A stretch of 64,000 bases of DNA, taken from Corynebacterium fournieri (lineage in GTDB: Bacteria; Actinomycetota; Actinomycetes; Mycobacteriales; Mycobacteriaceae). Positions within the stretch are counted from its first letter, which is position 1. Every line of letters starts with the position of its first letter. A model generated the notes under the pieces. It made no database searches, was not told the DNA's origin, and saw nothing but the letters and a program-made list of their open reading frames with translations. Shown here in pieces: positions 9,824-14,449 of the stretch. The DNA is taken from assembly GCF_030408775.1 (NCBI RefSeq), contig NZ_CP047210.1, positions 806,001 through 870,000 on the forward strand, in the 5' to 3' direction. The translations under genes were made by a program, and so were the position numbers.

Positions 9824-10909
9824 GTGAGCCTTACACTTGGAATTGTCGGTCTGCCCAACGTAGGCAAGTCCACCCTGTTCAACGCGCTGACGCGCAACGA
9901 GGTGCTTGCCGCGAACTACCCGTTCGCCACCATCGAGCCCAACGTGGGCCTGGTGGAGCTGCCGGATCCGCGCCTGTACCGCCTGGCGGAAATCTTCGAC
10001 TCCGAGCGCGTGCTGCCCGCGACCGTGTCCTTCGTGGACATCGCCGGCATTGTCAAGGGCGCCTCCGAGGGTGAAGGCATGGGCAACGCCTTTTTGGCCA
10101 ACATCCGCGAAGCGGACGCGATCTGCCAGGTCGTGCGCGCATTCAGCGACGACAACGTCATCCACGTCGACGGCAAGGTCGACCCGTCTGCGGACATCGA
10201 GGTCATCAACACCGAGCTGATCCTCGCCGACCTGCAGACCATTGAGAAGGCCCTGCCGCGCCTGGAAAAGGACGGCCGCAAGGACAAAGACGTCGCAGCG
10301 CAGGCGGAGGAGGCGAAGAAGGCCCAGGCGGTCCTCGAAGACGGCCGCACCCTGTTTGCCGCCTCGAAGAGCGGGGAGGTGGACCTGGCGCTGCTGCACC
10401 ACCTGCACCTGATGACCGCGAAGCCGTTCCTCTACGTGTTCAACTCAGACGAGGACGTGCTCACCGACGACGCGAGAAAGCAGGAGCTGCGCGAGCTGGT
10501 CGCGCCCGCCGGGGCTGTGTTCCTGGACGCGCAGACCGAAACCGAGCTGCTCGAGCTTGACGACGAAGACGCCGCCGAACTGCTCGCCGCCGTCGGACAG
10601 GATGAGCCGGGGCTGCAGACCCTGGCCAAGGCCGGCTTCGACACCCTCGGCCTGCAGACTTACCTCACCGCGGGCCCGAAGGAGGCGCGCGCCTGGACGA
10701 TCCGCAAGGGCGACACCGCCCCGAAGGCCGCCGGCGTGATCCACTCCGACTTTGAGAAGGGCTTTATTAAGGCCGAGATCGTCGGCTTCGACGACTTGAA
10801 CGAGGCCGGCTCCATGGCCGAGGCCCGCGCCAACGGCAAGGTGCGCCAGGAGGGCAAGGACTACGTCATGGCCGACGGCGACGTCGTTGAATTTAAGTTC
10901 AATGTGTAG
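9824..10909 (+). CDS. ychF: Ribosome-binding ATPase/GTPase YchF
   Basis: 361-residue Obg-family P-loop NTPase that binds ATP and 70S ribosomes. It has the G1 motif GLPNVGKST at the N-terminus, FVDIAGIVKGASEGEGMGN (G3/switch), a coiled-coil insertion near residues 130-200, and a TGS domain that ends GDVVEFKFNV. Start is GTG 9824 (VSLTLGIVG). The last eight codons use T/A third positions (gtt gaa ttt ... aat) unlike the GC-rich codons just before them, and a GC-rich copy of the same eight codons lies at 12249-12272; see the separate entries. Confidence 0.96.
   Translation: MSLTLGIVGLPNVGKSTLFNALTRNEVLAANYPFATIEPNVGLVELPDPRLYRLAEIFDSERVLPATVSFVDIAGIVKGASEGEGMGNAFLANIREADAICQVVRAFSDDNVIHVDGKVDPSADIEVINTELILADLQTIEKALPRLEKDGRKDKDVAAQAEEAKKAQAVLEDGRTLFAASKSGEVDLALLHHLHLMTAKPFLYVFNSDEDVLTDDARKQELRELVAPAGAVFLDAQTETELLELDDEDAAELLAAVGQDEPGLQTLAKAGFDTLGLQTYLTAGPKEARAWTIRKGDTAPKAAGVIHSDFEKGFIKAEIVGFDDLNEAGSMAEARANGKVRQEGKDYVMADGDVVEFKFNV
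10886..10909 (+). repeat. ychF 3'-end repeat, copy 1 (in the intact gene)
   Basis: Final 24 bases of ychF, encoding VEFKFNV and stop. Four of the 24 bases differ from copy 2 at 12249-12272, and all four are third-codon-position changes. Together with copy 2 it brackets the AT-richer epimerase segment. Confidence 0.8.
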
Positions 10910-10910
10910 G

Positions 10911-10997
10911 TTAGCCGAATAAGAAGCTCTGGCAGATGGTGGGGTAATCCTGCTCTGACATCTTATTCCAGCTTGGATGCGCTGGGATTAGGACTGG
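10911..10997 (-). pseudogene. Minus-strand C-terminal remnant next to ychF stop
   Basis: One base after the ychF stop codon a minus-strand frame ends (TAA complement at 10911-10913) that is open back to 10997 and encodes PVLIPAHPSWNK followed by MSEQDYPTICQSFLFG. The composition looks like a genuine protein C-terminus; I do not recognise the family. An ATG at 10961 would give a 16-residue peptide without a clear ribosome-binding site. It is most simply the 3' stub of a gene that was convergent with ychF in the source of this segment. It overlaps the epimerase promoter region. Confidence 0.35.
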
Positions 10998-11032
10998 TCA
11001 CGTGTGAGAAAGTTTCGTGTACAACTAGTGAC

Positions 11033-12007
11033 ATGAACTTTTTATTGCTCGGTGGTACCGGTTTCCTTGGAGGACACATTGCGGCTGCAGCAATCGACCG
11101 AGGACATCAAGTTACCTGCCTCGCGCGGGGTAACGGGAAGGTTCCCAACGGAGCCGAATTTGTGAGTTCAGACCGTGACCGTGACGGTGCGTACGATGAG
11201 GTTGCGGGGAAAACTTGGGACACCATTGTGGATCTGACGAGTCAGCCGAAGCATGCGCGGGATGCGGCGGCGAAACTCCAGGCCAAGCATCGTATATTTG
11301 TGTCTTCGAGCAGCGTATATGAGGACCAAGGAAGTATTTCTTCCGAGTCTGATTCCATAGTCACTCCGCTTGAAATTGACTACATGGAGAACATGGGGCA
11401 GTACCCAGCTGCAAAGTCTGCTTGCGAAACGATTTATCGCAACATAAATAGGTCGGTAATGGTAGTTCGACCCGGTCTGATCGCCGGCTACGGCGACGAA
11501 ACAGGGCGCAGTGGTTACTATCCGTGGCGCTTCGCGCATCCCACGGGTGAGAACGTGATCGTCCCAGACCCGGCGTTTCCCGTCGCTATGATTGATGTGA
11601 AAGACCTTGCAGACTGGATAGTTGAGTCTGCAGAAGTTGGAACTTTCGGAACCTTTAACGCCACGGGGTTTGCTACTTCCTTGTCCGATGTGTTCAAGAT
11701 TTCGCGTGAGTTAACCGCATCGGAGGCTACGGAGCGACCTTGCTCTGATGAACTGCTTCTCGCTAATGATGTAACCCCGTGGATGGGCCCAAAATCGTTG
11801 CCGTTGTGGGTGCCAGGTGAACAGTTTCGCAACATCGCGCTACTCGATTGCGCCACAGCCTACGAAGCTGGCCTGCAGATTCGCCCGTTGAAAGAAACAT
11901 TGGCGGATGCGCTGCGATTCGAAGAAGAACAGCAGGGGGAAAGACTCGCTGGGCTCAGCGATGAGGAGGAAGTCGTGTTTCGCCAGCGGTTAGAAGATGG
12001 TATTTAG
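11033..12007 (+). CDS. NAD-dependent epimerase/dehydratase (extended SDR)
   Basis: 324 residues. The N-terminal Rossmann motif GGTGFLGG (residues 7-14) binds NAD(P). The SDR active site is visible: the serine run IFVSSSSVYE (about 88-97) and YPAAK (Tyr124, Lys128). The C-terminal half (WMGPKSLPLWVP...) is typical of isoflavone-reductase/epimerase-like proteins acting on nucleotide sugars or similar; the substrate cannot be told. ATG 11033 is the start that aligns with the Rossmann fold. The gene is visibly AT-richer, with mixed codon use, than ychF or the genes after 12273, and it lies between two copies of the ychF tail, both suggesting acquisition. Confidence 0.85.
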   Translation: MNFLLLGGTGFLGGHIAAAAIDRGHQVTCLARGNGKVPNGAEFVSSDRDRDGAYDEVAGKTWDTIVDLTSQPKHARDAAAKLQAKHRIFVSSSSVYEDQGSISSESDSIVTPLEIDYMENMGQYPAAKSACETIYRNINRSVMVVRPGLIAGYGDETGRSGYYPWRFAHPTGENVIVPDPAFPVAMIDVKDLADWIVESAEVGTFGTFNATGFATSLSDVFKISRELTASEATERPCSDELLLANDVTPWMGPKSLPLWVPGEQFRNIALLDCATAYEAGLQIRPLKETLADALRFEEEQQGERLAGLSDEEEVVFRQRLEDGI

Positions 12008-12143
12008 TTTCGGCAGGAACAGTTTTAGTTGCAGTCGGGACCGTACTAAGTTGGTTTTCGTTCCGCGACTGACTGTGAGAATGAGTCCGAATCTGACTTG
12101 AGGGGAACTTCGGCGGTGCTAGCTCTTCATGACGTGGAACGAT

Positions 12144-12245
12144 CTAGCCTGCGGAGGTTGCCTTTCCGAGCAGGAAACGCCTTGCGGCACACTTTTCAGC
12201 TTCTCGAATCGCTTGCAACTGAGTGAGGTAGCCTTCTTTCGCCAC
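12144..12245 (-). pseudogene. Small minus-strand ORF or gene remnant in the epimerase segment
   Basis: 33 codons from a GTG at 12245 to a TAG at 12144, encoding VAKEGYLTQLQAIREAEK and then CAARRFLLGKATSAG. Charge pattern and lack of rare residues look protein-like, but no family is recognised. It is in frame with the VOC gene upstream, just past that gene's TAA, and its 5' side touches the ychF-tail copy. It could be a small protein gene, a 3' stub, or chance. Confidence 0.25.
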
Positions 12246-12248
12246 TCC

Positions 12249-12272
12249 GTCGAGTTCAAGTTCAACGTGTAG
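12249..12272 (+). repeat. ychF 3'-end repeat, copy 2 (orphan tail)
   Basis: Encodes VEFKFNV and a stop codon in the plus direction, with GC-rich codons (gtc gag ttc ... aac gtg tag) like the body of ychF. Nothing upstream of it continues the ychF reading frame (AFFRHS precedes it). The next base begins the complement of the VOC gene's stop codon, as expected if this was the original ychF end abutting a convergent neighbour. Confidence 0.8.
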
Positions 12273-12623
12273 TTACGCTTCGGGGCTGCCCACGCAAAAC
12301 TCGTTGCCTTCCGGATCTTGCATAACGGTCCAAACGAGTCCCGGAGCCTCATGGCTGCCGAGTTCAGTGGCGCCCAACGTCTTGAGGCGCTCTACTAGGG
12401 GTTCGCGTTCAGTGCCGACGCCGTCGATATGAACGCGGTTCTTGCCGGGGGTGGGGTCGGCGACACGCTGAAAACCTAGTGCCGGGGTGGAACCGACCAT
12501 GACAAAGTCTCCGTAGTCGGCGACGATCTCGCATCCTGTCGCGGAGGACCAGAATTCGGCGAGCCGAGAGGGATCGTTGCAGTCGAGGGTTATCTGGCGG
12601 ATAGCGAAAGTTGAGTCACGCAT
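12273..12623 (-). CDS. VOC-family (glyoxalase-like) protein
   Basis: 116 residues with the vicinal-oxygen-chelate/glyoxalase-like fold: IRQITLDCNDPSRLAEFWS at the start (beta-alpha unit), a central NRVHIDG strand with a metal-ligand-type histidine, and the closing DPEGNEFCVG strand with the usual glutamate. The N-terminal counterpart ligand position is an Asp/Cys (LDCND), so metal use is uncertain. ATG 12623 preferred over the upstream GTG at 12650. Function unknown; such proteins are often lyases, dioxygenases or resistance proteins. Confidence 0.8.
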   Translation of the reverse strand: MRDSTFAIRQITLDCNDPSRLAEFWSSATGCEIVADYGDFVMVGSTPALGFQRVADPTPGKNRVHIDGVGTEREPLVERLKTLGATELGSHEAPGLVWTVMQDPEGNEFCVGSPEA

Positions 12624-12711
12624 AGTCCGCACCGTACCCGTGCTTCGCACTCCACGTCTCGCTTCGCCTTCTTCAAGGATTCGCAGGACGCCCCGAGTCG
12701 CCGAAGCGGTT

Positions 12712-13155
12712 TTACGGCAGCCGGGGCCGGCGCCTCGTCGACTTCAGCTCCGAGCGTCGCTTCTTTGCCTCGAGCCGGCGCCGCACCGAGCCGCGAGTCG
12801 GTTTCGTCGTGCGCCGCGGGGGAGGTGGCGGGGCGAGTGCCTCGCGCAACAGGGCGGCTATGCGTTCCCGGGCCTCGGCGCGGTTGCGGACCTGTGAGCG
12901 CTGCGTCGACGCGCTGACGGTGAGCACCGTGCCGTCCAGGCGGTGCTCGAGGTTGCGCAGGGCGCGGCGGCGTTGGGCGTCGGAAAGTGATGCGCACGCC
13001 GCGATGTCGATGGAGAGCTGGACCTTGCTGTCCGTCGTGTTGACGCCCTGGCCGCCTGGGCCCGAAGACTTTGCGAAACGCTCGGTAAGATCCCCAGCGG
13101 CGACGACAACGCCGTCGGGGATCCCCGGTCCGGGCGCAATGGTTAAGTCGTGCAT
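12712..13155 (-). CDS. arfB: Peptidyl-tRNA hydrolase ArfB (ribosome rescue)
   Basis: 147 residues. Contains the release-factor catalytic motif in SSGPGGQGVNTT (GGQ at residues 34-36) and a basic C-terminal tail (TRGSVRRRLEAKKRRSELK) that in ArfB/YaeJ inserts in the mRNA channel of stalled ribosomes. No stop-codon-recognition domain, so this is the rescue factor and not RF1/RF2. ATG 13155 (MHDLTIAPGPGIP) fits the family start; the frame open to 13230 is longer than needed. Confidence 0.9.
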   Translation of the reverse strand: MHDLTIAPGPGIPDGVVVAAGDLTERFAKSSGPGGQGVNTTDSKVQLSIDIAACASLSDAQRRRALRNLEHRLDGTVLTVSASTQRSQVRNRAEARERIAALLREALAPPPPPRRTTKPTRGSVRRRLEAKKRRSELKSTRRRPRLP

Positions 13156-13236
13156 GCCGCCCACCTTACGTTTGCAGGTGGTGGGCGCTGAACCTGCGGG
13201 GGCGAGGAAACGGAGCTCGTCGTCAAGCAAACCGCT

Positions 13237-14295
13237 CTAGCGCTGCGGCAGCACAACCTCCGGATACTTGCGCACGTATCCCACCGCGATGATCACGAGC
13301 GCCGCCGCGGCGCCGATGACGGTCTCCGCGGTGCGGGCGAGCAGCATCGGCCAGACGGGGGCGGTGTCGACTACCTGGATCATCAACAGGGCCGTGGGTG
13401 TGATGAAGCTGGCGGCGATGGTGTAGTTGCGTGTCACGTACATCTCGGTGAGGTACTGCAAGATGACAATCCAGACGACGATCTGCCAGCCCTGCATCGG
13501 GTGGGACAGCAGGAAGCCGGCCACTGCGATGCCGGTGAGGGTGCCGAGTACGCGCTCGATCGCCCGGTAGTACTGCACCTTAAACCGCGAGTTCACCAGC
13601 GGGGCGACGGAGGCGACCATTGCCCAATAGGAATGCGACAACGGGTCGAACACCGTCACAGAAATCAGCCCTAAAACACCGGCGAGCAGCGGGGCGAAGA
13701 AGAACCGGCGGGCCTCCACCCGCAGGCGCCGCCACGGCACACGCCCCGCACCCGGGTCGCGCGTGGGGTGCTCGGTGTCCTTCGCGTCGCCGCCGGGACC
13801 TTCGCCGATGGGGTGCGAAAGCTGGCCCAGCCCCAGGCAGAGCAACGCCGCGCTGCCGGCGATGGCGAAGGCGAGCAGCGGATGGACCGGATTATTCAGC
13901 GAACCGACCGCCGCCACCGAAAAGATGACGAAAACCGACCCTGTCGGCTTCATGTCAGCGGCCAACGCGGTGGTGGCCCATGTGGAAGAAACTAGGGAGG
14001 TCACCACAATGAGCACCCACGGGCTGACATCCAGCCACGCCATGGTCGCGCCCAACGTCACCGACAATGTGAGCGCGATACCCGCCAGGATCTGGTGCTT
14101 CAGGCGGGTCACGCGCGTGGTGTGCCTGCCATAGACGCCGGTGAACGCGCCGAAGTTAGCGTAGATGGCCAAATCGAGCCGCCCGATCGCAAGGAGAGCG
14201 AACATGGGGAGGGCCACGCCGAGCGCGGTGCGGAAGGCGGGGATGTGGTCGCGCCGGGCAGGACCCATCTGAAACAGCGGGCTGAAGTGGTGCAA
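13237..14295 (-). CDS. FUSC-family membrane protein
   Basis: 352-residue integral membrane protein of the FUSC/aromatic-acid exporter (PET/YccS-like) family, with two blocks of hydrophobic helices (about residues 20-160 and 215-335) separated by a hydrophilic loop. The segment FKVQYYRAIERVLGTLTGI is characteristic of the second repeat. I choose TTG 14295 because AAAGGAGG lies five bases upstream of it; the frame extends to 14346 but that start is also TTG and has no such site. Likely exports small organic molecules; substrate unknown. Confidence 0.82.
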   Translation of the reverse strand: MHHFSPLFQMGPARRDHIPAFRTALGVALPMFALLAIGRLDLAIYANFGAFTGVYGRHTTRVTRLKHQILAGIALTLSVTLGATMAWLDVSPWVLIVVTSLVSSTWATTALAADMKPTGSVFVIFSVAAVGSLNNPVHPLLAFAIAGSAALLCLGLGQLSHPIGEGPGGDAKDTEHPTRDPGAGRVPWRRLRVEARRFFFAPLLAGVLGLISVTVFDPLSHSYWAMVASVAPLVNSRFKVQYYRAIERVLGTLTGIAVAGFLLSHPMQGWQIVVWIVILQYLTEMYVTRNYTIAASFITPTALLMIQVVDTAPVWPMLLARTAETVIGAAAALVIIAVGYVRKYPEVVLPQR

Positions 14296-14449
14296 CCTAG
14301 TCCTCCTTTGTTCGCTCTGTTCGCTCGGCGCTGCTGGGCCGTGCAAGTCTATCGCGGGGGCGGCGGAGGCGAGGCGGGGGAAGCGGCACTCGAGCTTTGG
14401 CTCTATGATGGCGCGGTCATCGCAGTTAGAAGAAGGAGTTTTCGTCGCA

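Follow-up and report, generated by a model that had tools for sequence, protein, structure and literature searches.

Integrons, whose attC sites act as folded single strands, are known as arrays of cassettes with a common boundary site, in which a new unit enters beside one fixed site and the cargo is adaptive. In the staphylococcal cassette chromosome (SCC) elements at rlmH/orfX, a serine recombinase acts at the 3' end of a conserved gene, giving composite arrays with resistance cargo, some of whose members lack a recombinase. The ssrA genomic islands (ssrA-GIs) of Dehalococcoides are described as lying in tandem, each delimited by a short direct repeat that matches the 3' end of the target gene; the serine recombinase DsiB lies beside attL in the 16 of 31 islands that have an integration module, the other 15 being without one, and the motif preceding the repeat on its left is not that of the native gene (PMC3146451). 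The stretch of DNA analysed here (the window) comprises 64,000 nucleotides of Corynebacterium fournieri (contig NZ_CP047210.1, positions 806,001 to 870,000) and carries an insert, cassette E, at the 3' end of ychF, the gene of the conserved GTPase YchF. Judged from sequence comparison, this insert is very probably (probability about 0.88) a non-autonomous mobile gene cassette, inserted site-specifically, of a cassette-array system of Actinomycetes whose units are probably moved by a serine recombinase. The ychF system works like SCC and the ssrA islands, which are its closest precedents, and is laid out like an integron; it departs from each of them in recombinase or in target.

The last eight codons of ychF (GTTGAATTTAAGTTCAATGTGTAG, copy 1) occur again at the far end of the insert (GTCGAGTTCAAGTTCAACGTGTAG, copy 2; Table 1). 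As the original prediction, made from the window alone, had read them, the two copies differ at four positions, each a synonymous third codon position, and both encode VEFKFNV followed by the stop codon. The shift in codon use that it placed at an AT-rich copy 1, with a GC-rich copy 2, is borne out by the GC content of third codon positions (GC3), which is 0.90 in the ychF body, 0.95 in the 60 codons preceding copy 1, 0.43 in the seven codons of copy 1 and 1.0 in copy 2; overall GC is 0.29 and 0.46 for the two copies, 0.66 for ychF and 0.53 for the insert, and the epimerase gene between the copies is indeed of unlike composition (GC3 0.55). Minus-strand stop codons had been thought to abut both copies: the TTA at 12273 ends the listed VOC-family open reading frame (ORF), and no frame of at least 60 aa ends at 10911. 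In the entire 2.39-Mb window genome (G000), the tail-plus-stop motif GTNGARTTYMRNTTYAAYGTNTAR has two occurrences and a reversed control none.

Across the genus, represented by 201 Corynebacterium genomes, one per species, a YchF query matches all 201, with weak matches only (E 3e-9 to 5e-16), which may be other GTPases, in G082, G112 and G118. The tail-plus-stop motif is present in 130 of the 201 and its reversed pattern in none. By a hand tally, in which location at ychF was checked among the matches listed, 46 genomes have at least two tail copies, lying on a single contig strand in 45 of them (on both in G002). In 81 regions, namely the window and 80 others fetched from the top of the ychF ranking and not at random (1.05 Mb downstream of ychF), full matches at the 18 specified positions number 49 in sense, none in antisense and none in shuffled sequence, while at least 16 of the 18 positions match in 72, one and one cases, respectively. 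One to four extra full tails are found in 25 of the 77 regions of at least 5 kb.

Cutting a first set at the repeats gave 83 units, some from weak boundaries (15/18). Thirty-eight genomes chosen for arrays or for large serine recombinases (LSRs) were mapped further; ychF lies inside the fetched piece in 36, and 34 of these yielded 95 units with a median length of 3,178 bp (boundaries of at least 17/18). Cassettes follow one another in tandem, each opening with its own ychF tail and closing in a conserved arm, and the recurrent unit families have constant ends. The right-end consensus ahead of the repeat is approximately GGTTA..TTTGC..CGACAYNCC, strongest at -20G, -19T, -8C, -7G and -4A (74 boundaries). 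Cassette types were assigned through hand-picked end signatures, and their letters (E, A, C, S, V, I, P) are labels of this analysis. Cassette E occurs as a 1,364-bp unit at differing array positions in G189, G158, G103 and G161, and as a variant of 1,367 bp with a different right end in G125. The arrays read E in G000, E-A-V in G189, S-E-C-V in G158, C-E-A in G103, LSR element-E-C-A in G161, S-A-C-V in G054 and A-E'-x-C-S-I in G125, the left neighbour of E being ychF (G000, G189), S (G158), C (G103) or the LSR element (G161). The window's arfB-FUSC gene pair recurs in the same order behind other inserts in G016, G069, G158, G179 and G189. The proposal that foreign DNA had entered at the 3' end of ychF with a tail restoring the gene is upheld by this native flank shared behind differing inserts, which the suggested comparison of relatives found between ychF-tail repeats, and by a displaced tail in another pair of genomes (G078/G053).

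Over 1,344 nt, the E copies of G158, G103 and G161 show 100.0% identity, against 82.8-88.0% for the ychF genes of these genomes, and copies of cassette A show 96-99% in arrays that follow ychF genes with 68-76% amino acid identity; the identity of E across three species and of A across orders points to recent movement of units without an LSR. The window's E is 95.4% identical to the copies of those three genomes and 96.1% to that of G189. G078 and G053 differ by a cassette A placed between ychF and the former tail; this tail, with its unusual GTA codon, has shifted intact, the displaced G053 tail keeping everything to the right of GT, and the two genomes are 99.22% identical over 6,000 nt rightward from it.

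The system is not confined to Corynebacterium. When 84,980 species genomes were scanned for an arm followed by a tail, with a pattern restricted to the CC-type arm, 50 stretches were returned, all 50 titled actinobacteria, mostly Corynebacterium but also Varibaculum, Gleimia, Brevibacterium and Pseudoglutamicibacter, from three orders. The ychF locus itself was examined in seven such non-Corynebacterium genomes. Behind ychF lie an LSR of 96% nucleotide identity in two Varibaculum genomes, cassette S at 96% in Gleimia europaea and cassette A at 96-98%, in two pieces, in Brevibacterium mcbrellneri, and the ychF of these carriers has 68-72% amino acid identity. Pseudoglutamicibacter albus has cassette V at ychF (80% over 357 nt) and P. 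cumminsii a C-type unit (91-93%) starting about 0.7 kb behind it; no cassette match was found within 1.5 kb of ychF in Brevibacterium sp. HMSC07C04. A second, partial YchF-coding stretch (about aa 212-361) lies near the array in B. mcbrellneri and P. albus (L188; L167 3403-3849), followed in B. mcbrellneri by an E-like stretch (73% nt).

In several genomes a 492-aa protein with Resolvase and Recombinase domains, the LSR, is encoded directly behind ychF; in G179 it matches serine-recombinase families only (PF00239, E=2.4e-31; PF07508, E=1.3e-13). A match at E<=1e-20 is found in 46 of the 201 genomes, and ten have a full-length LSR at 98% identity or more, the G036 copy having an internal stop codon. 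In G016, G034, G038, G069, G161, G179 and G195 the LSR gene is first behind ychF, on the same strand and 18-20 nt past the stop. The 20.1-kb LSR element of G161 also encodes SSB, DUF4192, two MFS transporters and a small HTH_17 protein, which could be a directionality factor. A further product of this element, 1,474 aa long (L111 14541-18962), has a DNA polymerase A domain at its C-terminus, which together with SSB hints at self-replication. In G036 (L123 near 7942) and G050 (L124 near 8211), the LSR element stands behind gaggatgtcgtctgc instead of ychF, a secondary site of the element. In 10 of the 81 regions YchF ends in a differing tail (such as VEFKTGLTSGAKR), the divergence starting within the repeat (L035, L046, L058, L059, L067, L075, L094, L097, L099 and, in part, L054). 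Full-length LSR relatives of 48-53% identity lie behind ychF in L058, L075, L094, L097 and L099, where YchF ends in TGLTS..K and not in FNV, and G106 has a 45% relative in reverse orientation; in the differing-tail regions the element seems to rewrite the C-terminus of this conserved GTPase.

The LSR, encoded in some genomes by larger elements directly behind ychF, is proposed to recombine two sites, also when the cassette itself has no LSR. One would be the ychF site, with ..GGCGACGTS as its left half and GTNGARTTYAARTTYAAYGT as its right half; the other would be the junction of a circularised cassette, whose left half reads ..GGTTA..CGACAYNCC and whose right half repeats the ychF tail with synonymous changes. 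Exchange would take place at the GT opening the repeat; ychF would gain new, equivalent last codons and its old tail would be displaced to the far end of the cassette. Each insertion would leave a target-like ychF junction, on which further cassettes could stack because cassette and target have the right half in common, and the units may be mobile still. The 24-base overlap, suggested as a possible core attachment site, is a half-site carried on the left end of the cassette, with the exchange itself inferred at its first two bases. In an association test (92 of 205 distinct boundaries usable, descent uncorrected), the variable tail positions 3, 6, 9-12, 15 and 18 are linked to the identity of the cassette on the right; the observed value was reached in 0 of 1,000 permutations. 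The circle junctions of LSR elements (right end plus left end) form an imperfect palindrome whose best centre is 1.5, between G1 and T2, in 6/6, with 13-14/21 pairs at GT and runner-up centres at 7/15 to 10/21. A crossover between positions 6 and 9, which E alone would suggest, is weakened by the association test and by the G078/G053 pair; palindromic junctions as a general cassette trait hold for LSR elements and fail for E, A and P. Somewhat short of even odds, the system may be an integron analogue with a serine recombinase: as the left halves of target and cassette junctions differ and their right halves are the same, each GT exchange would regenerate one target-type and one cassette-type site.

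Several findings weigh against the account of site-specific insertion by the LSR. Of the 77 regions spanning 5 kb or more, 52 lack a second full tail over the length fetched; among them are G179 and G069, where it sits past a long LSR element. Among the ten genomes with a full-length LSR, G036 and G050 carry it at another site, and ychF was not located in G068. With regard to the crossover point, positions 7, 9-12 and 18 associate, less strongly, with the left neighbour as well (p 0.001-0.039); the six LSR junctions are nearly identical, and hence close to one observation; the junctions of LSR-less cassettes pair at 5-11/21 at the proposed centre (13 units), those of E, A and P at 5-8/21 and that of E itself at 6-7/21 with better centres elsewhere. 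Positions 3 and 6 are variable within the E family, which alone would permit exchange up to position 8; given this variation and the asymmetric E junction, GT is a putative crossover dinucleotide. The linked integrase that the original prediction proposed to look for exists as the LSR at the site in other genomes, whereas at E<=1e-20 it is absent from the window cassette and from G000, so that this cassette is non-autonomous and perhaps a stranded relic. That the units in general are dead relics, decayed LSR elements and passengers not themselves mobile, an origin that overlaps with the one preferred here, fits this absence, the LSR N-terminal remnant and LSR-element right end retained by S units, the LSR fragments of I units and the lack of palindromic symmetry at the E, A and P junctions; nevertheless, a perfectly identical E at differing places in three species and an A at 96-99% across orders make it the less likely reading.

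A recombinase other than the ychF-linked LSR might move the small cassettes, seeing that 155 of the 201 genomes, including the carriers G000, G002, G054, G103, G177 and G189, lack any LSR match at E<=1e-20. Target, repeat and right-arm consensus, however, are common to the LSR element and the cassettes, and the LSR element and S units end in the same arm, which leaves such an enzyme quite improbable. Still harder to sustain is an entry by homologous recombination, for which the original prediction had left room, with DNA of a donor strain exchanged at ychF and the flank downstream of it and the tail repeat arising as a by-product: long blocks are nearly identical between some species (98.99% over 13.1 kb in G125/G078, with ychF at 92.2%), and some arrays may move in blocks by this route, but boundaries fall at the repeat, single units are common to different neighbourhoods, and an identical E, or an A at 96-99%, beside divergent ychF genes is not explained by it. 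The repeat is just 24 bp long, which might suggest a chance match or a small tandem duplication; the absence of any reversed-motif match in 201 genomes and the 49/0/0 counts behind ychF rule out chance, already judged very unlikely from the window, and leave practically no room for duplication. A site-specific cassette, probably moved by a serine recombinase, remains the reading preferred here.

Set against the described systems, the ychF arrays resemble the ssrA-GIs, as far as these are described, in being tandem, in the repeat of the target's 3' end, in the serine recombinase, in the modules missing from some units and in a motif left of the repeat that is unlike the native one. The ssrA-GIs have a tmRNA target and are described from one genus, whereas here the target is a protein gene with a synonymous tail, the range is several genera in three orders, many units measure about 1-5 kb, and the repeat is the ychF tail instead of the 20-bp repeat of an insertion at ssrA. 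From SCC the system differs in target (ychF, not rlmH) and in recombinase, the LSR scoring 74.1 bits to NCBIfam CcrB against a cut-off of 900. Entry beside one fixed site, as in integrons, is seen in the G053/G078 pair and in the LSR element being first behind ychF in 7/7 fetched genomes with an LSR at ychF; the integron recombinase IntI, however, is a tyrosine and not a serine enzyme, and in the ychF system a copied coding tail forms the boundary and the LSR is part of a mobile unit instead of a fixed platform. LSR elements proper have both recombinase domains (G179) and attP-like arms around a 2-bp core (6/6); such junction arms were not found for E, A and P. Actinobacterial phage serine integrases are the same type of protein, the best match being that of Microbacterium phage UtzChips (42.2% identity across 73% of the query). 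None of the 944 matching phage records reaches 60% identity, and the occurrence of the LSR itself in phages was rejected; the Pfam matches of ten element proteins (two without any match) include no phage structural family. A pneumococcal prophage is reported to insert site-specifically beside ychF, at a 14-bp site in the ychF promoter region (PMC6375853); this site being upstream, unrelated in sequence and not at the 3' end, it was rejected as a precedent. No description of ychF-tail arrays was found among the literature matches listed (titles and abstract openings, with subscription papers and preprints mostly outside that scope), so one may exist elsewhere. A term search of two Corynebacterium resistance-island papers gave no mention of ychF in the passages covered.

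The cargo was read from ORFs of a rule-of-thumb gene caller, whose small ORFs are unreliable. In cassette A, the mercury(II) reductase MerA scores above cut-off, and an accompanying MerR-type regulator and ArfB-like protein score below theirs. Cassette C encodes a cadmium-type P-ATPase and CmtR (above), with an ArsO-like protein just below cut-off in a variant; a G177 unit encodes a copper P-ATPase (above) and a multicopper-oxidase-like protein (below). The Erm-type 23S rRNA methyltransferase of cassette S is above the cut-off of a broad Erm model, and the LSR elements of both G069 and G016 contain an ORF that shares its start. In G009 the I unit encodes type I-like methylase and specificity proteins; a G042 unit (TSG-type element) encodes a type II methylase and a nuclease, and further defence-type matches are to PDC-S56 and an ApeA/HEPN protein. 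In unit P (L051 9181-13737), present in several genomes, a 1,519-aa protein nearly fills the 4,739-bp unit; with no Pfam match and a weak PADLOC match to PDC-M54A, it is a candidate defence gene. Several other cassette proteins had no match in family scans.

The cargo of E in the window is an epimerase-family protein, whose single NCBIfam match is far under cut-off; the unit had no match among 72,556 plasmid records. No tRNA or tmRNA gene was found within the window, and such a target was therefore discarded. The VOC/glyoxalase-like gene to the right either belongs to the native sequence or is an older cassette whose right end cannot be recognised; VOC genes precede arfB-FUSC in G069, G158 and G189. 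The second gene of this flank is presumably FUSC-like. ArfB-like genes recur inside a single array (three in G016; units A, K and others; 12712-13185 in the window), as if the native arfB neighbour of ychF had been captured repeatedly.

Table 1. Features of the ychF locus, numbered by position in the window
Feature	Position	Strand	Basis or remark
ychF (YchF GTPase), 3' end the target site	9824..10909	+	Pfam YchF-GTPase_C, MMR_HSR1
Putative mobile cassette E (1,363 bp between successive inferred crossover points)	10886..12248	+	recurs in relatives
Tail copy 1, cassette-borne ychF 3' end, putative right half of attachment site, restores ychF	10886..10909	+	
GT dinucleotide, inferred left-junction crossover point	10886..10887	+	palindrome centre of LSR junctions; displaced tail of G053
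Cargo: NAD-dependent epimerase/dehydratase family protein, 324 aa	11033..12007	+	PF01370 E=1.4e-11, above cut-off
Cassette right-end arm TGAGGTAGCCTTCTTTCGCCACTCC	12224..12248	+	identical 25 bases in G189, G158, G103; by identity in G161
Tail copy 2, probably the displaced former ychF tail, now right boundary	12249..12272	+	like the displacement at G078/G053
GT dinucleotide, inferred right-junction crossover point	12249..12250	+	as for left junction
VOC/glyoxalase-like gene right of insert	12273..12650	-	Pfam Glyoxalase_6
Native flank: arfB-like (RF-1 domain) and FUSC-like genes	12712..14346	-	RF-1 domain scan

If the integron analogy holds, gain and loss of cassettes would form a symmetric shuttle that hardly requires a directionality factor, small units would be traded between orders of Actinomycetes, and genomes without the recombinase would be passive hosts. 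The repeat lets units be delimited in any genome, and the LSR would have its natural target inside the conserved end of ychF. Taken together, these data point to a common exchange route in human-associated actinobacteria, by which metal resistance, macrolide-type resistance and anti-phage genes would reach one predictable site, and in which the mobile element would pay for its landing with a synonymous copy of the last codons of the host gene.

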